A stretch of DNA of 33,477 nucleotides, from the NCBI RefSeq assembly GCF_012569525.1, contig NZ_CP046200.1:107794-141270 (forward strand), given 5' to 3'. Position numbers and translations under genes: made by a program. Each line of letters starts with the position of its first letter. Within the stretch, counting starts at the first letter, position 1. Under the pieces are notes generated by a model. It ran no database searches, was not told the DNA's origin, and worked only from the letters and a program-made list of their open reading frames with translations. This DNA comes from Enterobacteriaceae endosymbiont of Donacia piscatrix. GTDB lineage: Bacteria > Pseudomonadota > Gammaproteobacteria > Enterobacterales > Enterobacteriaceae. Shown piece after piece: positions 2,375-31,016 of this stretch.

Positions 2375-2980
2375 TCAAGAATTTCTTATTTTTAAGATTT
2401 TAATAACATCTTTTAAATTAATATTTTTTATTTTTAATAAAACTATTAAATGATATATTAAGTCTGCTGTTTCTTGTATAGTTTTTTTTTTATTATTATC
2501 GTTTGCTGCTATAATAGTTTCTATAGCTTCTTCTCCTACTTTTTGAGTAATTCTTTTTACCCCACTTTGATATAATTTATAAGTATATGAAGATTCTATA
2601 GAAAATTTTTTTTTTTTATCCAAAATTTTTTCTAATAAATATAAAAAAGTAAAATCAGATATTGTTTTTTTAAAACAACTATTTTCATTTAAATGACATG
2701 TATTATTTATAGAAATAACTAATATAAGAAGTGTATCTTTATCACAATCAGTTGTAATTTTTTTTACATATAAAAAATTACCTGTTGTTTCTCCTTTAGT
2801 CCATATTTTTTTTTTAGTTCGAGAAAAAAATGTAACTTTTTTAGTTTTTAAAGTAATATTAAGAGATTCCTTATTCATATAAGCATGCATAAGTATTTGT
2901 CCAGAAATTTTATGTTGTATTATAGTTGGAATTAATCCATTTGTTTTAACCCAATTTAAATTATTTAAAAAATTTAACAT
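2375..2980 (-). CDS. hisI: HisIE, bifunctional phosphoribosyl-AMP cyclohydrolase / phosphoribosyl-ATP pyrophosphatase
   Basis: Catalyses histidine steps 2 and 3: PR-ATP to PR-AMP (C-terminal HisE half), then ring opening (N-terminal HisI half). The 201-residue length fits the fused enterobacterial form (203). The HisI half has the metal-binding DCDKDTLL and the later Cys pair in [10 protein letters not shown]. The HisE half carries [24 protein letters not shown] and [13 protein letters not shown]. It is the last gene of the his operon, and its ATG lies inside the end of hisF (7-base overlap), which suggests translational coupling. A 12-base poly-A tract on the coding strand (plus-strand T at 2606-2617) sits in the linker and a 10-base one further on; both are in frame here but are potential slippage sites. 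Confidence 0.97.
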
Positions 2981-3753
2981 ATTCTTACCTCAATATTTTT
3001 TTTATGCAAAAATTTTTTTAATGTTTTAATATTAATAATATTTTTATGAAATACTGATGCAGCTAAAGCACCATCAACATTTATTTTTTTTTGAAAAACA
3101 TTATAAAAATCTTCTACAGAACCTGCACCTCCAGATGCTATTAAAGGTATTTTACAAATTTTTCTTATTTTTTTTAAAAAATTTATATCATAACCATTAC
3201 ATAATCCATCTTGATTCATCATATTTAAAACTATTTCACCTGCTCCTAATTTTTGGACATATTTTATCCATTCAGTTGTTTCCCAATTTGTTATTTTTAT
3301 ATTTTTTTGATTACCAGTATATTTATAAACATAATATTTTTGGGTTTCCTTGTCATACCAAGAATCTATTCCTATAACAATACATTGTTTACCAAAATAA
3401 TTAGATAATTTACTTATTAAATTAGGATTATTTAATGCAGGAGTATTAATTGATATTTTTTCTACTCCTAAATGTAATATTTTAGCAGCATCATCTATAG
3501 ATGTAATTCCTCCTGCAACACAAATTGGGATACTAATAATCTTAGAAATTTCAGATATCCATCTTTTATTAACTAATTCTTTATTAATTGATGCATTTAT
3601 ATCATAAAATACTAATTCATCAGCACCATCTTTATCATATTTTTTAGCTAAAGATAAAATATTTCCTATAATTTGATGATTTTTAAATTGTTTTCCTTTA
3701 ACTACTACATCTTTTTTTACATCTAAACAAGGAATTATCCTTTTTGCCAACAT
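2974..3753 (-). CDS. hisF: HisF, imidazole glycerol phosphate synthase cyclase subunit
   Basis: HisF is the (beta/alpha)8 cyclase half of IGP synthase. It uses ammonia delivered by HisH to convert PRFAR into IGP and AICAR. The protein is 259 residues (E. coli 258). Catalytic Asp11 is in IIPCLD and the second catalytic Asp is in VIGIDSW near residue 130. Phosphate-binding loops include CVAGGI and IASGGAG, and the C-terminus reads EVRIC as in E. coli. The start codon overlaps the end of hisA by 19 bases and the stop overlaps hisI by 7, so hisA-hisF-hisI are tightly packed. No damage is seen. Confidence 0.98.
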
Positions 3754-4475
3754 AAATTAGCCTCTTTAATAGTAAATTTTTTTTCTAAAAATGCTCTTCC
3801 TATAATTATATCTTTTACTCCAGTATTTTTTAAATTAATAATATCTTGTAAGGAAGATATACCTCCTGAAGCTTGAAATGATATTTCAGGATATTTTTTA
3901 ACTATTTCAGTATATAAATTTATATTTGGTCCTAAAAAAGTTCCATCTCGAGAAATATCTGTACATAAAACATATTTTAAACCTAAATATAAAAATTTTT
4001 CTATAATATCTTCAAAAATTATATTACTTGTATTTTGCCATCCATTAATAAAAATTATTTTTTCATTATTTTGATTATATTTTATATCTAAAGCTAAAAT
4101 AATAGAAAATGGATTATATAATTTAAATATTTTTTTTATATTTTCAAAATTTTGTAGGATAAAAGATCCTAATATAACTTGAGAATTAGGTATTAAATTA
4201 AAAATAAAATCTATATCTTTTTTAGATCTTATACCTCCCCCAATTTGTATTGGAGGTAAATGATATTTAGAAATTTTTTTTAATAACATTAATTGTTTTT
4301 TATCAGGATTTTTTGCGCCATCCAAATCTATAAGATGAATTTTATGAACATTTTCTTTAATATATTTTTTTATATAAAAAGTAGGTGTGTATAAATATTC
4401 ACGTTTTAAATTAAATTTACCTTGATGTAATCTAACTACTTTACCTTTTATTAAATCAATTGCTGGGATAATCAT
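3735..4475 (-). CDS. hisA: HisA, ProFAR isomerase
   Basis: HisA is the (beta/alpha)8 isomerase that converts ProFAR to PRFAR, the substrate of HisF/HisH. Length is 246 residues (E. coli 245). Catalytic Asp7 lies in IIPAID and the second acid in the CTDISRDGT loop. Phosphate-binding elements are IGGGIRS and ASGGISS, and the C-terminus keeps the EANLCWQKG pattern. It lies 10 bases downstream of hisH, and its 3' end overlaps hisF by 19 bases, longer than usual for this pair and consistent with genome compaction. Confidence 0.98.
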
Positions 4476-4485
4476 ATTTATAATT

Positions 4486-5076
4486 TCACATATTTAAAAA
4501 ATTTTTAATTAATTGAATACCATTAATTCCTGATCTTTCTGGATGAAATTGTACTCCAAAGAAATTTTTTTTTTGAATAACTGAACTGAACATTTTTCCA
4601 TAAGTAGTTGTAGCTATTGTATAATTATTCATACATATACTATAACTATGTGAAAAATAAAAATAAGAATTTCTATTAATTTTATTAAATAATGGTGATT
4701 TAATAGTATTATTTACTTTATTCCATCCCATATGAGGAATAGGAATGTATTTATTATCCATTAAATGGACAGAATAATCTATAATACCTAATGTTAGGGT
4801 ACCCCCATTTTCTTCACTATATTGTCCAAATATTTGCATTCCTAAACATATTCCTAAAATATCTATTTTACAATTTTGAATTAATTGAATTAAATTATCT
4901 TTTTTTAATTTTTTTATTATAGATTTAGCAGAACCTATACCTGGTAAAAAAATTTTATCAGCATTTGAAATTAAATTTTTATTATTTGTAATTTTAGAGT
5001 TAAATCCTAATTTTTTTATAGTAAATTTTAAAGAACAAAAATTACCACAAGAAGTATCTATAATAACAATTTTCAA
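4486..5076 (-). CDS. hisH: HisH, IGP synthase glutamine amidotransferase subunit
   Basis: HisH hydrolyses glutamine and channels ammonia to HisF. The 196-residue length equals E. coli. The class-I glutaminase triad is present: nucleophile Cys77 in GICLGMQ, and His178 and Glu180 in FHPERSG. The start is TTG (5076-5074), read from alignment to the family N-terminus (MKIVIIDT) and because no in-frame ATG is near. The TTG overlaps the hisB stop as TTGA, a four-base stop-start overlap typical of translational coupling, with an ATG replaced by TTG. Confidence 0.96.
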   Translation of the reverse strand: MKIVIIDTSCGNFCSLKFTIKKLGFNSKITNNKNLISNADKIFLPGIGSAKSIIKKLKKDNLIQLIQNCKIDILGICLGMQIFGQYSEENGGTLTLGIIDYSVHLMDNKYIPIPHMGWNKVNNTIKSPLFNKINRNSYFYFSHSYSICMNNYTIATTTYGKMFSSVIQKKNFFGVQFHPERSGINGIQLIKNFLNM

Positions 5077-6140
5077 TTTAAAACTCCTTTTGTGCTAGGA
5101 ATAATATTATGTTCAATTTTGATAGCTTGTTTTAAAGAACAAGCAAATGCTTTAAATAAACTTTCAATTTTATGATGATCATTTTCTCCAGTTACTTTTA
5201 AATGTATGTTACATAACATAGAATATGATAATGAATAAAAAAAATGTTTAATCATTTCAGTATTTAAATCTCCAATCTTTTGGTATTTAAATTGTACATC
5301 ATATTGTAAATATGGTCTTCCTGATAAATCTAATGAACATTGTGCTAATGATTCATCCATTGGCAATAAAAAACCAAATCTGTTAATACCCTTTTTATTG
5401 CCGATTGCTTTAGTGAAAGCTTTTCCTAAAGCAATAGCAATATCTTCTATTGTATGATGATCATCAATAAATAAATCTCCATTACTATAAATATTTAAAG
5501 TAAAACCTCCATGTATTGCTATTTGTTCTAACATGTGATCTAAAAAATTAATTCCAGTATTAATATTACATTTACTAAATTTATCTAAAAATAATTCTAC
5601 ATATATTATAGTTTCTTTTGTTATTTTTCTTATTATAGCATATCTTTTTATTGATGTTAATTTAGCTAAAATATCTAACCAATTACAAGTTTTTTTATTA
5701 TATAAAATACCTTTAATACCAATATTATTAGCTAATTTCATATCAATAATACGATCCCCTATAACATAGCTATTTTTTTTATCTAAAGAATTATTTAAAT
5801 ATTGTTTTAACATTGTTATATTTGGTTTTCTACATATGCATTTTTCATAAGAAAAATGAGGACAAATAAGAATATTTTCAAACTCTATATTTTGTGATTT
5901 AAATATATTAATCATGAAATTATGAGGAATATTAAAAGATTCATATGGGAAAAATTCTGTACCTAACCCATCTTGGTTAGTAACCATAATAAATAAATAA
6001 GAAAGTTTTTTTAATCTCGATAGTGTAAGAATAACGTTTTTTTCAAAAAATAATTTATTAATATGATCAATTTGAAAATTATTTTTAGGTTCAGATATTA
6101 AGGTACCATCTCTATCTATAAAAAGTATTTTTTTAAGCAT
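5073..6140 (-). CDS. hisB: HisB, bifunctional histidinol-phosphatase / imidazoleglycerol-phosphate dehydratase
   Basis: Two-domain enzyme of 355 residues, the same as E. coli. The N-terminal HAD phosphatase (about 1-165) has Asp9 and Asp11 in FIDRDGT, VTNQDGLGT, the zinc loop CPHFSYEKCICRKP and the GDRIID acid motif; it turns histidinol phosphate into histidinol. The C-terminal IGP dehydratase (about 166-355) has the manganese-binding repeats FLDHMLEQIAIHGG, DDHHTIED and HHKIESLFKAF. It follows hisDC by 22 bases. The bifunctional form is characteristic of gammaproteobacteria, which supports the taxonomic placement. Confidence 0.98.
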   Translation of the reverse strand: MLKKILFIDRDGTLISEPKNNFQIDHINKLFFEKNVILTLSRLKKLSYLFIMVTNQDGLGTEFFPYESFNIPHNFMINIFKSQNIEFENILICPHFSYEKCICRKPNITMLKQYLNNSLDKKNSYVIGDRIIDMKLANNIGIKGILYNKKTCNWLDILAKLTSIKRYAIIRKITKETIIYVELFLDKFSKCNINTGINFLDHMLEQIAIHGGFTLNIYSNGDLFIDDHHTIEDIAIALGKAFTKAIGNKKGINRFGFLLPMDESLAQCSLDLSGRPYLQYDVQFKYQKIGDLNTEMIKHFFYSLSYSMLCNIHLKVTGENDHHKIESLFKAFACSLKQAIKIEHNIIPSTKGVLN

Positions 6141-6162: not shown

Positions 6163-8556
6163 TTAAGATATTTTTTGTAATGTAAAAAATAATTTTTTAC
6201 ATTCATCAAATGTTCCTATTGTAATTCTTAAACAATTATTTAGTATTTTTTCATGGTTTTGATTTCGTACAATTATATTATTTTCATTTAAAATATCAAA
6301 AATAATTTTTGAATTATAAAATTTTACTAAGATAAAATTAGTTTTACTAGTAAAAATTTTTTTTATACAACTACAATTACTTAATTTTTTTATTAACCAT
6401 TTTTTATTATTTATAATTGTTTTAACATTATTATTCATAATAACTAAATTTTTTGTACTTAAAGCTTGTATTGCAATATCTAAAACTGGAATAGATATTG
6501 GATATGGTGCTATAACTTTAAGTAATATATTTATAATATATTTGTTTGTTAAAATAAAACCACAACGTAAACCTGCTAAACCAAATGCTTTAGATAAAGT
6601 TCTTAATATAATTAAATTTTCATATTTATTAATTAAATAAATCATAGTATGATTTAAACAAAATTCAATATATGCTTCATCAATAACAATTATTATTTTA
6701 TTTTTTGTTAATTCTAATAATTGTATTATATTATCTTTATTTAAAATATTTCCTGTAGGATTATTAGGATTGCAGAAATAGATAATTTTAATATTTTTAA
6801 GATTTTTTTTAATTTCATTAAAATTTATTTTCCAATTATCATTAATACTAAAAATCATTAAATATTTAATATTTAATATTTCAGCAGTAACACGATACAT
6901 ATCGTATGTAGGAGGACAAAATAAAATTTTGTCATATTCTTGATTACAAAATGTTCTCATAATTATATCTATACCTTCATCTGCTCCTCTAGTAATTAAA
7001 ATATTTTCATTATTTAAATTAATATATTTACTATAAAAATTAAGTAATTCTTTAGGTTGTTGTTCTGGATATCTATTCAATATTCTATTATTAATAGAAA
7101 ATAATGAAATAATAGGAGATTCATTTGCATTTAACATAATTTTATTATTAATATTATTTTTATATAATAATCTTGCTGATTTATATGGAATTAAATTTAG
7201 AATATTTTTTTTAACTATTTGATTAATATTTTTAATTTTTTTTTTTTGTTGATTTATAAAATTTTTTCTTATTGTTACAGAATTACTATGACCTAACAAA
7301 TTTTCTGTTTTTGCCATAGTTTCTACTGTAAAAGAAATATTTAATAAACCATTTTTTGTTAATTTTTGTACAGATATTTTTTTTTGAAAATCAGAAATAC
7401 TTAAACAAGAATAAGTTGAAGCATAACCATATGTAGGCAAAACATGGTTAGTTCCAGAAGCATAATCTCCTACTGATTCAGGAGCCCAATTACCTAAAAA
7501 AATAGATCCTGCATTAATAATATTAGATAAAATTTCTTTATAATTTTTACATTGAATAATAAGATGTTCAGGTGAATATGTATTCACTATATTAATACAT
7601 TCATCTATATTATCCACTATTATAATGTAACTATTATTAAGTGATTTTACTATTATATTTTTTTTAGGTATTTTTTTTAATTGTTTAAAAATATTTTGTT
7701 TAACTAATTTTCCAATTTTTTCTTCAGTAGTTATTAATAATACTTGTGAGTCAATACCATGTTCTGCTTGTGATAATAAATCTGCTATAATAAATTTATA
7801 ATTTGCTGATTCATCTGCAATAATCATTAATTCTGATGGACCAGCTGGCATATCTATAGAAGTTTTATTAAAAAAATTAGTATTATTACTAACTTGTTTT
7901 TTAGCTTCTGTAACATAAATATTTCCAGGACCAAAAATTTTATCTACTTTATTAACAGATTTTGTTCCATAAGCCATAGCTGCTATAGCATGTGCACCTC
8001 CTATTTGAAATATATTTTGTATATTACATAAATTAGCGGCAAATAAAATTTCATTAGAAATTGGTGGAGGAGAACATAAAATAATATTAGGACATAATGC
8101 TATTTGTGCCGGTATTCCTAACATTAATACTGTAGAAAATAATGATGATGTTCCTCCTGGAACATATAACCCTATTTTAGATATAGGACGAAAAATATGA
8201 CTACAAAATACTCCAGGTATAATTTCAATTATTTTTTTTTTTATAATTTGATATTTATGAAATTTATAAATATTATTATATGCATTTTGTATTGCATTTT
8301 TTACATTATGATTTATATGAAATTTTGAATTAAATATTTGTTCTTTATTTATTTGTAAATTATCAATTTTAATTTTATCAAATAATAAACTATATTTTTT
8401 TAAAGCAATATCACCATTTTCTTTAACTTGTTTTAAAATATTTTTTACATTATTCTTAATTTTTTTATCTATAAAAGATAGAGGTCGAGACAATATTCTT
8501 TTTTTGTAATTTTTATTACAATTTTTCCAATAAATAATATTATTTATAATATTCAT
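6163..8556 (-). CDS. hisD-hisC: HisD-HisC fusion: histidinol dehydrogenase joined to histidinol-phosphate aminotransferase
   Basis: One uninterrupted frame of 797 codons carries two normally separate enzymes. Residues 1-436 are HisD (E. coli 434 residues), with the zinc ligands in LLSQAEHG, GDYASGTNH and GHSNSVTIR and the catalytic PEHL. From about 442 to the end is HisC (E. coli 356 residues), with NPNNPTG, VIDEAY, the PLP lysine in TLSKAFGLAG and the CGFIL arginine region. The join is a 12-base A tract where the HisC Met would fall; no ATG, GTG or TTG lies nearby for a separate HisC start. I start HisD at the ATG 8556, five bases after GGAG (8565-8562), not at the TTG at 8577. The fusion is seen directly; whether one polypeptide is made is inferred. 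Confidence 0.9.
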   Translation of the reverse strand: MNIINNIIYWKNCNKNYKKRILSRPLSFIDKKIKNNVKNILKQVKENGDIALKKYSLLFDKIKIDNLQINKEQIFNSKFHINHNVKNAIQNAYNNIYKFHKYQIIKKKIIEIIPGVFCSHIFRPISKIGLYVPGGTSSLFSTVLMLGIPAQIALCPNIILCSPPPISNEILFAANLCNIQNIFQIGGAHAIAAMAYGTKSVNKVDKIFGPGNIYVTEAKKQVSNNTNFFNKTSIDMPAGPSELMIIADESANYKFIIADLLSQAEHGIDSQVLLITTEEKIGKLVKQNIFKQLKKIPKKNIIVKSLNNSYIIIVDNIDECINIVNTYSPEHLIIQCKNYKEILSNIINAGSIFLGNWAPESVGDYASGTNHVLPTYGYASTYSCLSISDFQKKISVQKLTKNGLLNISFTVETMAKTENLLGHSNSVTIRKNFINQQKKKIKNINQIVKKNILNLIPYKSARLLYKNNINNKIMLNANESPIISLFSINNRILNRYPEQQPKELLNFYSKYINLNNENILITRGADEGIDIIMRTFCNQEYDKILFCPPTYDMYRVTAEILNIKYLMIFSINDNWKINFNEIKKNLKNIKIIYFCNPNNPTGNILNKDNIIQLLELTKNKIIIVIDEAYIEFCLNHTMIYLINKYENLIILRTLSKAFGLAGLRCGFILTNKYIINILLKVIAPYPISIPVLDIAIQALSTKNLVIMNNNVKTIINNKKWLIKKLSNCSCIKKIFTSKTNFILVKFYNSKIIFDILNENNIIVRNQNHEKILNNCLRITIGTFDECKKLFFTLQKIS
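7236..7247. repeat. 12-base poly-T (poly-A on coding strand) tract at the hisD/hisC junction
   Basis: A run of twelve T on the plus strand, read as A12 in the his transcript, sits exactly at the HisD C-terminus. With 12 A the frame continues into hisC. With 13 A the next codons are AAT then TAA. With 11 A the frame ends at a TAG a few codons on. Both alternative frames would therefore give a HisD of normal length, and only the 12-A form gives the fusion. RNA polymerase slippage on such tracts is known in insect endosymbionts. Confidence 0.9.
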
Positions 8557-8746: not shown

Positions 8747-9466
8747 TTATTTTAATTTTTTACTTGAAATATGTAAAGTAATATATTTTGATGTTTTTGT
8801 TTGAATTATTCCTTTGATTCTAGTTAATAATTTATTTATTAATTTTTGTTTAAAATATGATATTTTATCATAACGTTGTACTAAACATGCTTGAGAATTA
8901 TATATAACTTCTACTTCTTTAATACCATTTGCTTCTAATGTTGCTCCTGTAGAAACTAAATCACAAATAACATCAGATAAACCAACTTTTGGTGCTAATT
9001 CTACTGAACCATTTAAAATGCAAAACTTAAATTTGATATGATGTTGATGAAGATACTTTTTTAATAAATTAGGATAAGATGTTGCAATACAAGTATTTTG
9101 TAAAGATTTTAATCCTAAATAATTTTTATTTATAGGTATTGCTATTGATAATCGACATATACCAAAATCTAATTTACGTAATATTATATATTTTGCATTA
9201 TAACCCTTAGATACTCTATTTAATACTTCTTCTTCTAAAACATTTTTACCTATAATTCCTAAATCAACAACACCTTCCATAATTAAATTAGGAATATCGT
9301 CATCACGTACTCTTAAGATATCAATTGGCATATTTTCTGCAAAAACTATTAACCGTTGTTGTCGTAAATTAATTTTAAGACCACAATTCTTTAATAGTTT
9401 ACTAGTTTCATTACTTAAACGACCAGATTTTTGCATAGCTATACGTAAACGATTATTATCTAACAT
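8747..9466 (-). CDS. hisG: HisG, ATP phosphoribosyltransferase, truncated to the catalytic domains
   Basis: First enzyme of histidine synthesis (ATP + PRPP to PR-ATP) and the usual point of feedback inhibition by histidine. The 239-residue product matches E. coli HisG closely over residues 1-238: [40 protein letters not shown], and the PRPP loop [11 protein letters not shown]. It stops right after [14 protein letters not shown], where the long-form family (299 residues) continues into the C-terminal ACT-like domain that binds histidine. Both catalytic domains look intact, so a functional but feedback-insensitive enzyme is plausible. The short-form HisG of other bacteria needs HisZ and differs in sequence; this is a truncated long form. 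Start ATG 9466, preceded by AAAGG. First gene of the operon. Confidence 0.93.
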
Positions 9467-9608
9467 ACTATATACCTTTATTAAAAATAATTTAGTTTAA
9501 ATTTAGAACATAAATGTAATTTTAAAATTAATTAGTTAATTTAAACTTAAAGAAGTTATGTTAAAATAACAACTATTTTTTATAATTTTACATAAGTATT
9601 TAAAATTT
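9467..9608 (-). promoter_or_regulatory. Presumed his operon promoter region, no visible attenuator
   Basis: This 142-base gap upstream of hisG must hold the operon promoter. I looked for the enterobacterial his leader peptide (a run of His codons) followed by a terminator hairpin and found neither: there is no CAT/CAC cluster and no G/C stem. Near-consensus promoter hexamers are weak and I do not assign one. A likely ribosome binding site, AAAGG, lies just 5' of the hisG ATG. Confidence 0.4.
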
Positions 9609-23633: not shown

Positions 23634-24563
23634 ATGATAAGTCATATTCCAGTCTTATTAGAAGAATCTATTAATAGTTTAAATATTAAAAAAAATGGAA
23701 CATATATAGATGCAACATATGGTTGTGGAGGACATACAAAATTAATTTTATCTAGACTAAATAATCAAGGAAAAATTTATGCTATAGATCGAGATCTAAA
23801 AACATTATTAAAACATAAAATATTAGATAAAAGAATTATTTATATTAATAATAATTTTTCAAAGTTACAAAATTTATTTAAAAATAAAACAGATATAATA
23901 GATGGTATATTATTTGATTTAGGTATTTCTTCATTCCAATTAAATAATCCTAAAAGAGGTTTTTCTTATATGTTTAATGGACCATTAGATATGCGTATAA
24001 ATCAAAATGAAAAAATTACTGCTCATGATTTATTAAAACATATAAATGTAAAAAAATTATCAAAAATATTAAAAATATATGGTGAAGAAAAATATCATAA
24101 AAAAATAGCATATAATATTAAAAAATATATATTTAATAATAAATTAAATAATACACGAGATTTATCATATGTAATATCTATAGTTAATAAAAAAAATAAA
24201 TTTAAACATCCAGCAAAAAGATCTTTTCAAGCTATAAGAATTTTTTTAAATAAAGAGATAGAAGAATTAAAAAAAGGGTTAAATATTTCATTAAAACTAT
24301 TAAAAATAGGAGGAATTATATCAATTATTAGTTTTCACTCTATAGAAGATAGGATTATAAAAAAATTTATGAAAAAACATAGTTCTTATCAAAATCAAAT
24401 TAATAATAAATTACCTTTAACAAAAAAACAAATAGATAATTTTTATACTAAAAATAAAAAATTAACATTAAAAATTATTGGTAGAATTTTCCCTAATAAA
24501 AATGAAATTTTAAAAAATTCAAGATCTAGAAGTGCAATATTACGTATTGCACAAAAAATATAA
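23634..24563 (+). CDS. rsmH: 16S rRNA m4C1402 methyltransferase RsmH (MraW)
   Basis: SAM-dependent methyltransferase that modifies C1402 of 16S rRNA in the ribosomal P site. It has 309 residues (E. coli 313). The N-terminal HIPVLLEESI, the SAM-binding YIDATYGCGGHT, LFDLGISSFQL, GFSYMFNGPLDMRI and the C-terminal ISFHSIEDRIIKKF are all in order. It is the first gene of the cell-wall cluster; mraZ, its usual upstream neighbour and repressor of the cluster, is absent. No Shine-Dalgarno is visible before the ATG. A 55-base gap separates it from murE, where ftsL and ftsI would normally be. Confidence 0.97.
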   Translation: MISHIPVLLEESINSLNIKKNGTYIDATYGCGGHTKLILSRLNNQGKIYAIDRDLKTLLKHKILDKRIIYINNNFSKLQNLFKNKTDIIDGILFDLGISSFQLNNPKRGFSYMFNGPLDMRINQNEKITAHDLLKHINVKKLSKILKIYGEEKYHKKIAYNIKKYIFNNKLNNTRDLSYVISIVNKKNKFKHPAKRSFQAIRIFLNKEIEELKKGLNISLKLLKIGGIISIISFHSIEDRIIKKFMKKHSSYQNQINNKLPLTKKQIDNFYTKNKKLTLKIIGRIFPNKNEILKNSRSRSAILRIAQKI

Positions 24564-24618
24564 AAAATACTAATTTTAGTATAAATATAATAATATAATT
24601 TATATTAAGGATTAATCA

Positions 24619-26115
24619 TTGGATATTTCTTTACTTAGTTTACAAAAACTATTAAATAGTTATATTAAACATGATTTAATAAAAAATATTTTAATAAATA
24701 AGATTATTTTAGATAGTAGAAAAATTAAAGGTAAAAATTGTTTATTTATTGCAATTAAAGGACGTAAGTATGATGGTAAAAATTTTATAAAACAAGCTAT
24801 ATTAAAAGGGGCAGTAGCAGTATTAACTTATTCTGATAAAAAAATATTACCTTATACTATAAAAGTAAAAAAAAACATACCTATTATTTATTTACCAAAT
24901 TTACATAAAAAAATTTCATATCTTGCAGGTATACTGTATGATCATCCAAGTAAAAAAATTCCTATAATAGGAATTACTGGAACTAATGGAAAAACAAGTA
25001 TCACATATTTTTTAATGCAATGGTTTAGATTATTAAATTATAAACCTGCTATTTTAAGTACTATAGGAAATGGTTTTTATAAAAATTTAACTGCGACAAA
25101 TAATACAACTGATTCAGCTGTAGATATACAATTTACATTAAAAAAATTTATAGATAAAAAGGCAGATATTGTAATTATGGAAGTTTCATCACATGGATTA
25201 GATCAATTTAGAGTAGCTAATATAATATTTTCTATTGGAATTTTTACAAATTTAACAAGAGATCATTTAGATTATCATATTAATATGAAAAATTATGAAT
25301 TGTCTAAATGGAAATTTTTTTCTACTCACAAAATCAAAAAAAAAATTATAAATATTGATGATAATGTAGGATTAAAATGGTATAAAAAATTATCAAATGT
25401 TACAGTTATTACTACTAATTCAAATTATCAATTAAATTTGTTTATATATATAAAAAAAATAATTTATTTATCTAATAATACTATTATTAAATTTAATTCT
25501 ATTTGGGGTAATGGAAAAATAAAAACAAATTTAATGGGTCAATTTAATGTAATAAATATTATATTATGTATGGCTACATTATTAAATCTAAATTTTTCTT
25601 TGAAAAAATTAATAAAAACAGTACCAAAAATATTTCATACTCCAGGAAGAATGCAAAAAGTTTATTTTAAAAAAAAATATACTAATATAATAATTGATTA
25701 TGCTCATACTCCTGATGCACTTAAGAACATATTATTAACTCTTAAATTAAATATTAAAGGTAAAATATGGTGTATCTTTGGATGTGGAGGAGAAAGAGAT
25801 ATAGGGAAAAGATCAATAATGGGATATATAGCTACAAAATATGCTGATGTTATAATTCTAACCACTGATAATCCTAGAAAAGAAAATATTGATAATATTA
25901 TTAAAGATATAAAAAAAGGATGTATTACATTAAAAAATGTTTATATTATTTTAAATAGAATTAAAGCTATTTCTTATGCGATTTCTCATTCAGCAAAAAA
26001 TGATACTATTTTAGTAGCTGGTAAAGGTCATGAAGATTATCAAATTATAGGTAATAAAATTTTTGTTTATTCAGATTTTGATACTATTCAAAAAATCTTA
26101 AGAAATATAAAATGA
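24619..26115 (+). CDS. murE: UDP-MurNAc-tripeptide synthetase (meso-DAP ligase) MurE
   Basis: Adds the third amino acid to the peptidoglycan stem. It has 498 residues (E. coli 495). The ATP loop is GITGTNGKTSITYF, the carbamylated Lys lies in YELSKWKFF, and the DNPRKEN motif specifies meso-diaminopimelate, as in Gram-negatives. The start is TTG at 24619, supported by AAGG eight bases upstream (24607-24610) and by the lack of any early in-frame ATG. The stop TGA overlaps the murF start (ATGA), which suggests coupled translation. Confidence 0.97.
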   Translation: MDISLLSLQKLLNSYIKHDLIKNILINKIILDSRKIKGKNCLFIAIKGRKYDGKNFIKQAILKGAVAVLTYSDKKILPYTIKVKKNIPIIYLPNLHKKISYLAGILYDHPSKKIPIIGITGTNGKTSITYFLMQWFRLLNYKPAILSTIGNGFYKNLTATNNTTDSAVDIQFTLKKFIDKKADIVIMEVSSHGLDQFRVANIIFSIGIFTNLTRDHLDYHINMKNYELSKWKFFSTHKIKKKIINIDDNVGLKWYKKLSNVTVITTNSNYQLNLFIYIKKIIYLSNNTIIKFNSIWGNGKIKTNLMGQFNVINIILCMATLLNLNFSLKKLIKTVPKIFHTPGRMQKVYFKKKYTNIIIDYAHTPDALKNILLTLKLNIKGKIWCIFGCGGERDIGKRSIMGYIATKYADVIILTTDNPRKENIDNIIKDIKKGCITLKNVYIILNRIKAISYAISHSAKNDTILVAGKGHEDYQIIGNKIFVYSDFDTIQKILRNIK

Positions 26116-27488
26116 ATGAATTAATTAGTTTAAAAAAATTATCACAAATAGTAAATGGTAAATTAATTGGTAATAACATTAAAATATTAAATTTTTCTAT
26201 AGATAGTAAACAAATTAAACAAAATTGTATTTTTATTGCTATTTGTGGTAATAAATTTGATGGACATTGTTTTATTCATGATGCTATTAAAAATGGAGCA
26301 TTAGCTATATTAGTACATAAATATATTAACATTAATATTCCTCAAATTATTGTGTTAGATACTACTATAGGATTAGCTAAATTAAGTTTATGGAAAAGAA
26401 TAAAATTTAAACATAATGTAATCGGAATTACTGGATCTTCAGGTAAAACATCAGTTAAAGAAATGACTGTATGTATTTTAAAAAATAAAAATAAGATCCT
26501 TTTTACTAAAAAAAATATGAATAATCATATTGGTGTACCTTTAACATTATTAAAATTACAAAATAAATATAAACATGCTATAATTGAAATAGGTGGAAAT
26601 AAAATTAATGATATTTCCTATATTGCTAATTTAGTAAAACCTAATATTGCATTAATTAATAATATATCAGAATCACATTTAGAAGGTTTTAAATCTTTAA
26701 AAAAAATTATTGAAAATAAAAGTGATATTTTTAAATTTTTAAAAAATAAAGGAATTGCAATTATTAATTATGATGATAAAAATCAAAAAAAAATTTTAAA
26801 AAAATTAAATAATGATAAAAAAATCTTTACTTTCTCTTTAAGAAATAACAAAGCAGATTTTTTTGCCAAAAATATAATAATATTGCCCAATAAAATTAAA
26901 TTTTTATTAATTTCACCTATAGGTAAAATATTAATTAAATTATTTCTTATTGGGGGGGGAACGCATAATATTAGTAATGCATTAGCATCAGCAGTATTAT
27001 CATTTTCTGTAGGATCTACTTTAGAAGAAATAGCAATTGGATTAAAAAATTTCAAACCTATTAAAGGAAGAATGTACCCAATTATTATTGACCAAAATAA
27101 ACTTATTATAAATGATTCGTATAATGCAAACCCGAATTCAGTAAATATAGCTATTAATATTTTAAAAAATTTTTCTGGTAAAAAAATTTTAGTTATTGGT
27201 GATATGTTAGAATTAGGTATTTATACTATTTTTTATCACAAAAAAATAAAAAAATTAATTTTAAAATCTAATATAGATTATATTTTTAGTATTGGTAAAT
27301 ATAGTCATTACTTTACTAAAAATAATATTAATATGGAATCACAACATTTTTATAATAAAAATATGTTAGTAAATCAATTATTTTTAATAATTAAAAATTT
27401 TAATCATTATACTATTTTGTTTAAAGGATCACGTAAAAATAAAATAGAAATATTAATTAAAATGTTATTGGAAAAATTAAAATGTTAA
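26112..27488 (+). CDS. murF: UDP-MurNAc-tripeptide:D-Ala-D-Ala ligase MurF
   Basis: Attaches the D-Ala-D-Ala made by Ddl to finish the UDP-MurNAc pentapeptide. It has 458 residues (E. coli 452). The ATP loop is GITGSSGKTSVKEM; HNISNALASAVL and NDSYNANPNSV are typical of Mur ligase central and C-terminal domains. It overlaps murE by 4 bases and mraY by 7. An uninterrupted run of eight G (26952-26959) encodes the GGG before THNISNAL, a striking run in this A/T-rich DNA and a possible frameshift hotspot; it is in frame here. Confidence 0.97.
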   Translation: MNELISLKKLSQIVNGKLIGNNIKILNFSIDSKQIKQNCIFIAICGNKFDGHCFIHDAIKNGALAILVHKYININIPQIIVLDTTIGLAKLSLWKRIKFKHNVIGITGSSGKTSVKEMTVCILKNKNKILFTKKNMNNHIGVPLTLLKLQNKYKHAIIEIGGNKINDISYIANLVKPNIALINNISESHLEGFKSLKKIIENKSDIFKFLKNKGIAIINYDDKNQKKILKKLNNDKKIFTFSLRNNKADFFAKNIIILPNKIKFLLISPIGKILIKLFLIGGGTHNISNALASAVLSFSVGSTLEEIAIGLKNFKPIKGRMYPIIIDQNKLIINDSYNANPNSVNIAINILKNFSGKKILVIGDMLELGIYTIFYHKKIKKLILKSNIDYIFSIGKYSHYFTKNNINMESQHFYNKNMLVNQLFLIIKNFNHYTILFKGSRKNKIEILIKMLLEKLKC

Positions 27489-28564
27489 TGATATTATTTA
27501 CATATTTTAAAAAATATTTAAAATATATAAATTATTTCTTAATAAATTTTAGAATACGTTCTATAATGACATTTATAACGTCATTCAGTATCACATTTTT
27601 TTTAACTCCAATTTTTATTAACTATTTTCATAAAAAAAAAATTTCTCAAATAATTAGAAAAGATGGACCAATTACACATTTTATTAAGAAAAAAACTCCT
27701 ACTATGGGAGGAATAATTATATTATTATCTATTTTTACTTCTGTAATAATTTGGTCAGATTTATCTAATAAATATGTTTTATATATATTATTTATAACAT
27801 TTTTATATTCAATAATTGGTTTTATGGATGATTTTTATAAAATTATTTTGAAAAATTCAATAGGATTAAGTCCATATAAAAAACTTTTTTTACAATCAAT
27901 TGCTAATATTTTTTTTTTATTATTTATTACAATAAATAATAAAAAAGAACAATATATAAATATTATTGTTCCCTTTACACATAAAATTATAAAATATAAT
28001 TTAAATATCATCTTATATATAATAATATGTTATTTTATTCTAATAACAGTTAGTAATTCTGTAAATTTAACTGATGGATTAGATGGTTTAGCAATTATGC
28101 CTATTATTTTTATTTCTTTAGGTCTAGCTGTTTTATCTTATTTTACAGGAAATATATATTTTTCTAAATATTTTAATTTTATTTATATAAAAAATTCTAC
28201 AGAATTAATCATTATTTGTTTGTCTATAGTTGGTTCTGGATTAGCATTTTTATGGTATAATACATATCCTGCAAAAATTTTTATGGGAGATGTAGGTTCA
28301 TTATCTTTAGGTTGTATCATTTCAATAATTGCAATTTTTATAAAACAAGAATTTTTATTTATTATAATGTGTGGTATATTTATTACTGAATCAATTTCTG
28401 TTTTTATTCAATTAGTAAAATTTAAATATAATAAAAAAAGATTTTTTTTAATGGCTCCTTTACATCATCATTATGAATTACAAGGGATTTCAGAACCTTG
28501 TATTATTATTAGATTTTGGATTATTTCATTAATATTAATATTGTTTACTTTTATGATAATGTAA
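27482..28564 (+). CDS. mraY: Phospho-MurNAc-pentapeptide translocase MraY
   Basis: Integral inner-membrane enzyme that transfers phospho-MurNAc-pentapeptide to undecaprenyl phosphate, giving lipid I. The 360-residue length equals E. coli, with about ten hydrophobic segments. Active-site motifs are the Asp pair at 116-117 in IGFMDDF, NSVNLTDGLDGLA, the third catalytic Asp in IFMGDVGSL, and HHHYELQG near the C-terminus. It starts at ATG 27482, inside the end of murF; a second ATG two codons on (27488) is an alternative. The family ending is preserved (RFWIISLILIL). Confidence 0.98.
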   Translation: MLMILFTYFKKYLKYINYFLINFRIRSIMTFITSFSITFFLTPIFINYFHKKKISQIIRKDGPITHFIKKKTPTMGGIIILLSIFTSVIIWSDLSNKYVLYILFITFLYSIIGFMDDFYKIILKNSIGLSPYKKLFLQSIANIFFLLFITINNKKEQYINIIVPFTHKIIKYNLNIILYIIICYFILITVSNSVNLTDGLDGLAIMPIIFISLGLAVLSYFTGNIYFSKYFNFIYIKNSTELIIICLSIVGSGLAFLWYNTYPAKIFMGDVGSLSLGCIISIIAIFIKQEFLFIIMCGIFITESISVFIQLVKFKYNKKRFFLMAPLHHHYELQGISEPCIIIRFWIISLILILFTFMIM

Positions 28565-28582
28565 TATTTAATAGTGTAAAAA

Positions 28583-29899
28583 ATGAATAAAAAAATACTT
28601 ATTATAGGTTTAGGTATAACAGGAATGTCGTGTTTAAAATTTTTTTTAAAAAAAAAAATTATTCCAGCTATTATGGATGAACGAAAAAATTTTAAATTTA
28701 TAAAAAAAATACCTTTATATGTACCATGTCATTTTGGTTCTTTAAATAGAGATTGGATACTTAATTCTCAATTAATTATTTTAAGTCCCGGTATATCAAT
28801 ATTTAATAATCTCATATTAGAAGCTCAAAAAAAAAATATTGAAATTATAGGAGACATGGAATTATTTGCTCGTTATAATACTACTCCATTAATAGCTATA
28901 ACAGGTACTAATGGTAAAAGTACTGTAACTAATATGATTGCTAATATAATGAAAAAAAGTAATTTTCAAGTTAGCATCGGGGGAAATATAGGATATCCAG
29001 TAATGAATTTACTATCCTTTAAAAGGGATTTTTATATTTTAGAAATTTCTAGTTTTCAATTAGAGACAATTAAAAAATTAGATATATATATTGCTATAAT
29101 TCTAAATATTTCACAAGATCATATGGATAGATATCCTTTAGGTATTGAACAATATCGTAATTTTAAATTACGTATTTATCGAAATGCTAATATTTGTATA
29201 TATAATTCTGATGATAAATTATGTTATCCAGAAGTATTTTATAATGAAAAAAAATATATTACTTTTGGTAAATTTTCAGGTAAATATTCTTTATCTTTTA
29301 AGAAAGAGAAGGTTTTTTTAAAAATAAATAATAAAAAAATATTTAATTTTAATAAAACTAAGTTAATTGGTGTCCATAATTATTTAAATTCCCTAGCTGT
29401 ATTAGCTGTTATAGATATATTAAAAATTTCTAAAAAAATTTTTTTTAAAGAAATGAATAATTATAAAAACATGAATCATACATTAAAAATTATTCACAAA
29501 GAAAATGGAGTAATCTGGATTAATGATTCAAAATCTACTAATGTTAATAGTACAAAAGTTGCTCTAGAATATCTATGTAAAAAAAAAAGAATTTGGTTAT
29601 TTTTAGGTGGTTACGATAAAAATTGTAAATTTTTTTTATTACAAAAATATTTACAAAAAAAAAATAATATAAAAATTTTTTGTTTTGGTCAATTAAGTAA
29701 AAAAATATTATCTATTTATTCTAAAGCAATAATAGTTAAAACAATATATGAAGGAATAAAAAAAATTATTAAATTAGTAAAATTTGGGGATATTGTATTA
29801 TTTTCTCCAGCATGTTCTAGTATTGATCAATTTAAAAATTTTAAACATCGTGGAAATGAATTTATTAGAATAGTAAAAAAAATTCATAAATGTAAATAA
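28583..29899 (+). CDS. murD: UDP-MurNAc-L-alanine:D-glutamate ligase MurD
   Basis: Adds D-Glu to UDP-MurNAc-L-Ala. The 438-residue length equals E. coli. The N-terminal UDP-binding loop is GLGITGMSCL, the ATP loop is ITGTNGKSTVTNM, then LEISSFQLE, the NDSKSTN motif and the C-terminal FSPACSSIDQFKNFKHRG. An 8-T run followed by 11 A (28640-28658) lies near the 5' end in frame, and two A10 tracts occur later. After its stop there are only 55 bases before murG; ftsW, normally here, is missing. Confidence 0.97.
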   Translation: MNKKILIIGLGITGMSCLKFFLKKKIIPAIMDERKNFKFIKKIPLYVPCHFGSLNRDWILNSQLIILSPGISIFNNLILEAQKKNIEIIGDMELFARYNTTPLIAITGTNGKSTVTNMIANIMKKSNFQVSIGGNIGYPVMNLLSFKRDFYILEISSFQLETIKKLDIYIAIILNISQDHMDRYPLGIEQYRNFKLRIYRNANICIYNSDDKLCYPEVFYNEKKYITFGKFSGKYSLSFKKEKVFLKINNKKIFNFNKTKLIGVHNYLNSLAVLAVIDILKISKKIFFKEMNNYKNMNHTLKIIHKENGVIWINDSKSTNVNSTKVALEYLCKKKRIWLFLGGYDKNCKFFLLQKYLQKKNNIKIFCFGQLSKKILSIYSKAIIVKTIYEGIKKIIKLVKFGDIVLFSPACSSIDQFKNFKHRGNEFIRIVKKIHKCK

Positions 29900-29954
29900 T
29901 ATTTCTATAAAAGAAATTTATGATTTTAAATATTTTACATATTAAATTTTAAAA

Positions 29955-31016
29955 ATGAAAAAAAAAATTCTTATAGTAGCTGGAGGTACTAGGGGACATA
30001 TTAATCCAGCTTTAAATATAGCATATGTTTTAAAAAAAAAAGGTTGGGAAGTACGTTGGTTAGGAACATATTCTAGAATGGAAGCAAAAATTATTCCTAA
30101 AAAAAATATACGTATTTATTTTATAAAATTTTATAAATTTAAAAACAAAAATATTTTTTCAATTATTTTTACTATTATTAAATTAATAATATCAATTTAT
30201 AAATCTATTTTAATTTATAAAAAATATAAACCACATATAATATTAACAATGGGTAGTTATATTTCTGGACCTAGCGGATTAGCCGCATGGTTATGTCAAA
30301 TACCATTAGTAATACATGAACAAAATAATATTGCAGGTATAACAAATAAACTTTTATATAAAATAGCAACTAAAACTATGCAAGCATATCCTAATACATT
30401 TAATAATGCTATATTAGTGGGCAATCCTTTAGATTATAGAATTATTAAATTATCTTTATATAAAAGAAAAAATTTAAAAATTCATAAACCAATTCATTTA
30501 TTAATTACAGGAGGTAGCCAAGGATCATATACAATAAATAAAATAGGTATAAAATTAGCTAAAAATTTAAAAAATAAAATATGTATTTTACATCAAGTTG
30601 GCAAAGGTAATTTTAAAAAAATATCTTGTAAATATAAAAAATATAATATTATTAATAATATTATTATAAAAGAATATATAAAAGATATTCATAAAGCATA
30701 TGCATGGGCTGATATAATCATATGTAGATCAGGAGCTATGACTGTTAGTGAAATTACTGCGATAGGATTACCTGCTATTTTTATACCTTTTCAACATAAA
30801 GATAAACAACAATATTTTAATGCAATATATTTAAAAAATATAGGAATAGCTAAAATTTTTGAACAAAATAATATTAATTATGATAAAATCGCTAATTTAA
30901 TATTAAATCTTAATACAGATCAAATTATAAATATAATTAATAAATCTTATAATTTATTTATGATTAATTCTGTAGATTTAATTTATAAAGAATTAAATAA
31001 AATAAAAATTAATTAA
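29955..31016 (+). CDS. murG: Lipid II synthase MurG (GlcNAc transferase)
   Basis: Peripheral membrane GT-B enzyme that adds GlcNAc to lipid I. It has 353 residues (E. coli 355). The C-terminal UDP-GlcNAc half is intact: TGGSQGSYTIN, RSGAMTVSEITAIGLPAIF and PFQHKDKQQYFNA. In the N-terminal half the first glycine loop reads AGGTRGHINPAL, with Arg13 where the family has Gly (E. coli AGGTGGHVFP); the following His15 is kept. The codon is AGG, one base from GGG. Everything else suggests a selected gene. Confidence 0.95.
   Translation: MKKKILIVAGGTRGHINPALNIAYVLKKKGWEVRWLGTYSRMEAKIIPKKNIRIYFIKFYKFKNKNIFSIIFTIIKLIISIYKSILIYKKYKPHIILTMGSYISGPSGLAAWLCQIPLVIHEQNNIAGITNKLLYKIATKTMQAYPNTFNNAILVGNPLDYRIIKLSLYKRKNLKIHKPIHLLITGGSQGSYTINKIGIKLAKNLKNKICILHQVGKGNFKKISCKYKKYNIINNIIIKEYIKDIHKAYAWADIIICRSGAMTVSEITAIGLPAIFIPFQHKDKQQYFNAIYLKNIGIAKIFEQNNINYDKIANLILNLNTDQIINIINKSYNLFMINSVDLIYKELNKIKIN

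Follow-up and report, generated by a model that had tools for sequence, protein, structure and literature searches.

A hisD-hisC fusion conserved across a genus of endosymbionts probably encodes a bifunctional enzyme of histidine synthesis

Fusions between genes of the histidine pathway were catalogued by Fani et al. (2007, PMC1963479), whose excerpted text lists five of them, including hisNB, hisIE, hisHF (HIS7), hisIED (HIS4) and hisA/hisF, and names eight of the ten his genes as fusion partners, hisC and hisG not being among them. HisC catalyses step 7 and HisD steps 9 and 10 of histidine synthesis (PMC8305728); a fusion of the two joins steps 7 and 9-10, with step 8 in between. No HisDC fusion is mentioned in the excerpts of PMC8305728, PMC10138114 and PMC11237513, nor did a literature search by title and abstract, which left out most subscription journals, return a natural case; in the passages of PMC3896937 and PMC6432763 in which 'hisDC' or 'hisD-hisC' occurs, the terms stand for the operon or for HisD of Corynebacterium. 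As far as the literature searched goes, the combination is new, which agrees with the remark, in a first-pass annotation of the DNA described here, that HisDC is not a common fusion. Along another line, transcript slippage at runs of A is real in other endosymbionts (PMC5009743, PMC3017870), and in the excerpted cases, among them a histidine gene from the symbiont of an ant, 12-50% of the transcripts made at long A runs are frame-corrected (PMC5009743).

Here, I show that in the window, i.e. the whole stretch of 33,477 bases that was analysed, hisD and hisC share a single frame, which translates from ATG to TAA into 797 residues with no internal stop (Table 1). The genes on either side, which from their sequence and operon order I take to be hisG, upstream, and hisB, hisH, hisA, hisF and hisIE, downstream, place the fusion within the his operon; the listed start of the hisH frame (4486-5076) is a TTG and overlaps the end of hisB.

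Table 1. The fused gene, its parts and its neighbours (positions within the window).
Feature	Position	Strand	Basis or remark
hisDC, fused histidinol dehydrogenase / histidinol-phosphate aminotransferase	6163..8556	-	797 codons plus TAA (stop 6163-6165)
HisD half, residues 1-437	7246..8556	-	alignment to the E. coli enzyme (1k75), E 1e-137
HisC half, residues 444-797	6166..7227	-	alignment to E. coli HisC (1fg3), E 5.1e-103
Linker, residues 431-449, KNFINQQKKKIKNINQIVK	7210..7266	-	covers the HisD end, the join and where the N-terminal helix of HisC begins; span as measured across species
A12 tract at the join (T12 on the plus strand)	7236..7247	-	the sister genome lacks it
hisG, next his operon gene upstream	8747..9466	-	translation; presumed name
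hisB, hisH, hisA, hisF, hisIE, his operon genes downstream	2375..6140	-	translations; presumed names

Both halves are present in full. The alignment with E. coli HisD (1k75, 434 residues) pairs residues 4-437 with its residues 3-433, and that with E. coli HisC (1fg3) pairs residues 444-793 with its residues 6-351. Pfam places Histidinol_dh at 31-430 (517 bits for the PF00815 match of the HisD half) and Aminotran_1_2 at 490-789; the NCBIfam model TIGR00069 (hisD) matches residues 37-430 over model positions 1-393 of 393 with 504.2 bits, against a curated cut-off of 243.8, and TIGR01141 (hisC) matches residues 450-795 over model positions 2-348 of 349 with 342.5 bits, against 276.55. Two complete domains in one uninterrupted frame are the mark of a multifunctional his fusion, and the fused frame of 797 codons read in the first-pass annotation stands, its translation being stop-free and both of its domain profiles scoring above cut-off. 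An AlphaFold2 model of the fused protein, built with 20 sequences (20 of the 24 members of the genus, see below), is of middling quality (mean pLDDT 66.4, pTM 0.50) and says little on how the halves are placed relative to each other.

The run of twelve A lies at the join exactly where it had been reported, and the frame is as sensitive to its length as had been claimed: it is open with 12 or 15 A, whereas 13 A bring a stop at codon 442 and 11 A a stop at codon 447. The in-frame ATG, GTG or TTG codons nearest to the join are ATG 414 and TTG 420, both within the HisD domain, and ATG 474, within HisC, while the other two frames are closed by stops at 9 and 38 bases before the tract, with no ATG, GTG or TTG in between; HisC is therefore devoid of a standard start at its normal place, as first proposed, and its dependence on translation from hisD is supported for the window's species.

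The join is found throughout the genus. HisD and HisC lie in one stop-free frame in 24/24 genomes, the window genome included, although these share ancestry and are not 24 independent tests. Among the relatives, 22 gave stop-free alignments to the window protein that were complete or short of it by no more than a few terminal residues, and one (G015, locus L035) aligned in two pieces that lie inside a single 869-codon open frame; its extra length is made up of unknown bases and, after them, a repeated copy of the adjoining stretch, probably an assembly or scaffolding flaw. The lowest identity of these relatives to the window protein is 60%. A tree of the fused protein (midpoint-rooted, for drawing only) resolves clades of three, five and sixteen genomes, the last with support 94/95, and all of them carry the fusion. 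The fusion is no sequencing error and no one-off, but is conserved across the lineage. Long A runs are error-prone, and an error of assembly or sequencing in the tract, with two separate genes in reality, had been named as an alternative; its probability is now negligible, for the same in-frame join recurs in 23 further assemblies, 18 of the 24 genomes have no run of ten or more A there, and the alternative frames of the window genome offer no standard start between the nearest upstream stop and the tract. Only one error common to all 24 genomes would restore it.

The genome of the window comprises 465,734 bases in two contigs. The plasmids that best match the smaller one, of 6,615 bases, are those of the Plateumaris pusilla and Macroplea mutica symbionts (68% identity over 53% and 45% of its length, respectively), and trfA and prephenate dehydratase genes lie under the match. 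A plasmid-borne chorismate mutase/prephenate dehydratase is reported from all reed-beetle symbiont species in the excerpted text of PMC7289800, and the sequence suggests that the 24 genomes belong to symbionts of donaciine reed beetles. If so, the fusion is as old as the diversification of the Donaciinae, for which 75–100 million years are given in the same source (PMC7289800).

Defined from the residue after HisD's conserved arginine through to the HisC helix, the linker has seven lengths across the 24 genomes (19, 20, 21, 22, 23, 25 or 26 residues), and is short, variable and probably flexible. Stops occur in frame +1 of 23/24 linkers and in frame +2 of all 24, and in frame 0 of none, whereas base-shuffled linkers are stop-free with a probability of 0.017–0.094 each (mean 0.045). 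In two sets of close pairs, pN/pS is 0.41 for the linker in both, a figure resting on about 20 codons that says little, as compared with 0.26–0.32 for HisD and 0.29–0.37 for HisC.

HisC might nevertheless be made for the most part by initiation within the fused frame, in most species at a non-standard codon such as the ATA, ATT, ATC or ATG found ten codons before the PYxSA motif. At this position every one of the 24 genomes has ATA (16), ATG (4), ATT (2) or ATC (2), which would suit such a start; yet near the HisC N-terminus a hydrophobic residue sits at this position (L in the E. coli enzyme), and this explains the codon. Likewise, a separately made HisC would leave the linker free to close, and it is open in all 24 genomes despite its seven lengths. 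In 17/24 there is no in-frame ATG, GTG or TTG between codons -34 and -1 from PYxSA, and an internal HisC start is not supported; such initiation as the main source of HisC is very improbable. The four genomes with an ATG at -10 and the three with a TTG at -25, -24 or -2 may use an internal start.

A different role was proposed for the tract in the first-pass annotation, namely that RNA polymerase slipping on the A run yields both a stand-alone HisD and the fused HisDC from one gene. The design is plausible at first sight: transcripts with 11 or 13 A run into a stop no more than ten codons from the tract, the other two frames hold a stop in nearly all linkers, and the frame-corrected transcripts of other endosymbionts (12-50%, PMC5009743) are a precedent. 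Runs of ten or more A overlap the linker in six of the 24 genomes (12 A in the window genome and L014, 18 in L018, and 10 in L017, L019 and L021, which form one clade in the fused-protein tree), three of the six thus having 12 or 18 A, and runs of nine or more in twelve. Per kb such runs of ten or more are over five times as dense in linkers (3.62, or 6 in 1,659 bases) as in the rest of the gene (0.67, or 38 in 56,688).

The tract is, however, not conserved. Eighteen of the 24 linkers lack a run of ten or more A, and at the tract's position the sister genome (L010) reads CAA AAA CAA AAA, with no run longer than six A; a conserved slippery run at the decision point, as in programmed slippage of the dnaX type, is not found. 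Linkers are 60% A as against 44% for the genes, and when codons are shuffled within them a mean of 5.85 linkers carry a run of ten or more A, against 6 observed (56% of shuffles reach 6), and 8.87 a run of nine or more, against 12 observed (12% of shuffles reach 12); the lysine- and asparagine-rich codons predict the frequency of the runs, which are thereby fully explained. Genes of the window hold 20 A/T runs of ten or more, two of them of length 12. Since the fusion frame is conserved and the A run is not, slippage is not what makes HisC; as a mechanism it is rejected, and a programmed device giving HisD and HisDC is highly doubtful. Some slippage at the tract is likely, by analogy with the other endosymbionts, and looks like incidental leakage at most. 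The his genes of the window have other long A runs, A12 in hisIE (2606-2617) and A11 in the HisD half (8232-8242), which are also candidates for slippage.

The reading that I strongly favour is that of a HisDC conserved genus-wide, one bifunctional protein of about 800 residues made by straight translation, with the A12 tract as a by-product of the linker and with hisC hidden by the fusion from annotators. The ribosome would read straight through the join into a single chain, the halves of which would be held together by the linker. HisC would be present only within the fusion, at least in most genomes, because it lacks its own standard start codon there, and the A12 tract would arise from the lysine-rich, A-rich linker, allowing in the window's species for a leaky HisD-only product at most.

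As to function, the six positions that I take to be the zinc ligands and the catalytic Glu-His of HisD (E. coli Q259, H262, E326, H327, D360 and H419) are identical in 24/24 genomes. So are eight positions of HisC, including K214, presumably the PLP lysine, and N157, D184, Y187, S213, R222 and R335, presumably PLP or substrate residues. I infer that a single protein is made and that both of its halves are active, one bifunctional protein being the likeliest product. No second hisC was found by a PF00155 search of the window genome, which returned HisDC and a single 24.7-bit match, to a gene that I take to be SufS. A scan of genome contigs with the fused protein gave one distant, uninformative locus. 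Six other genomes of the genus (G005, G009, G011, G013, G015 and G019) encode another protein with a PF00155 match (95.5–126.9 bits), its frame being 385–395 residues long, and in the remaining 18 of the 24 no second match exceeds 38.5 bits.

These observations bear on a gap in the published model of the symbiosis. According to the excerpted text of the 2020 paper on reed-beetle symbiont genomes, hisC and argD are among five missing genes, for which other aminotransferases of the symbiont or of the host were proposed as substitutes, the annotation being by RAST and the grouping of genes by OrthoMCL and BlastKOALA (PMC7289800). The fused protein presumably received the single label hisD in that study, and the fusion very probably hid hisC from the annotators; HisDC thus very probably corrects a false gene loss in the model, as far as it is laid out in the excerpt (PMC7289800). 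That argD was hidden by a fusion in the same way is rejected: PF00202 (class III aminotransferases, argD type) has no match in any of the 24 genomes of the genus, whereas all 14 control genomes are positive. The reported absence of argD looks correct on sequence grounds, and the loss real; hisC is present in the 24 genomes as part of the fusion, whereas argD looks absent. More generally, annotation that grants one label to each protein can make fusions look like gene losses in small genomes.

Because HisDC is the sole strong match to class I/II aminotransferases (PF00155) in 18/24 genomes, a wider role may be proposed, in which the HisC half took on further transaminations reported missing (tyrB for tyrosine, argD for lysine) and a single fused protein supplies the beetle through several essential amino-acid pathways; I regard this as unlikely.

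Genomes outside the genus suggest how the fusion may have arisen. A case in point is L043, from a 0.6-Mb genome of the same family, in which the TAG of hisD is followed directly by the ATG of hisC in the same frame; by analogy this layout is a one-step precursor of the fusion, the loss of a single stop being enough. TAA and TGA separate the two genes in L041 and two stops in G035, again in the same frame, and in L042 hisC is in a different frame from hisD. The mechanism appears to be the ordinary one of stop loss between neighbours. It seems to have operated a second time in G442 (L076, G442:C55:35000-39500), from another genus of the same family, which has an open HisDC frame of 815 codons: the sequence ahead of hisC is 45 bases shorter than that of G035, a member of the same genus, neither stop is left and the hisC ATG is kept. 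This fusion is probably recent and independent of that in the window's genus, and HisC may still start alone there, since its ATG is kept.

The survey of HisDC architectures suggested in the first-pass annotation thus yields, besides the 24 genomes of the genus, one read-through frame (G442) and one candidate with unknown bases at the join (G608) among the matches listed. With strict thresholds, which may miss distant or weak fusions, and in overlapping sets that each include the window genome, one HisDC outside the genus was found among 394 genomes (G442), one frame among 369 (that of G608, locus L077, a distant genome of the class, with 789 codons open across the unknown bases) and none among 398; no stop-free HisDC outside the genus occurs among the matches listed for 36 further genomes, nor among those listed for a set of 147. 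Frames of 554–604 residues with a HisC-like match occur in G038, G042, G048 and G049. In L084:191-1900 and L085:943-2754 (G042 and G038) a HisC-like domain, at 205 and 212 bits below the NCBI hisC cut-off of 276.55, is followed by a HAD-type hydrolase domain (TIGR01548-like), and L086 and L087 (G049 and G048) have by eye the same layout. HisC-type domains therefore do join another natural fusion, in other genomes of the order, possibly one whose single chain covers steps 7 and 8 of the histidine pathway.

Elsewhere in the window, an Rfam search found tRNA only, with no family at the gathering threshold upstream of hisG (9467-9608), a result that bears on the speculation, in the excerpted text of PMC12508126, that attenuation regulates the his genes of these symbionts. 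A cell-wall cluster lies at 23634-31016; where ftsL, ftsI and ftsW would normally stand in it, no ORF for them is listed. From sequence and order I take its genes to be rsmH-murE-murF-mraY-murD-murG.

How, then, does HisDC compare with the systems already described? One of the closest is not natural: Yourno, Kohno and Roth (Nature 1970, 228:820) reportedly obtained a Salmonella hisD-hisC fusion that kept both activities. The two share the same genes in the same order and probably one bifunctional chain; the Salmonella fusion was made by mutation in the laboratory, whereas HisDC is natural and found in a whole genus, and may be regarded as the lasting counterpart of that classic construct. G442 likewise has hisD and hisC in one open frame, but, unlike HisDC, keeps the hisC ATG. 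The HisC-like–HAD proteins (L084 and L085 and, by eye, L086 and L087) are also natural fusions with a HisC-like domain, yet the partner is another one, the HisC-like domain comes first and it scores below the NCBI hisC cut-off. With the slippage-rescued genes of Buchnera and Blochmannia, as excerpted, hisDC has in common the AT-rich endosymbiont gene and the long A run; in those the reading frame is broken in the genome and mended by slippage (PMC3017870, PMC5009743), whereas that of hisDC is intact and calls for no rescue. Among the fusions named in the excerpt of the 2007 list, the resemblance is to hisNB, hisIE, hisHF and hisIED, in which his genes are joined in frame into a multifunctional enzyme, as HisDC probably is; in HIS4 (hisIED) HisD is a fusion partner as well, but HIS4 is fungal and carries HisD C-terminally, behind HisIE (PMC1963479). 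None of the five contains hisC, and HisDC, which does, is thus a his fusion of a kind absent from that list (PMC1963479).
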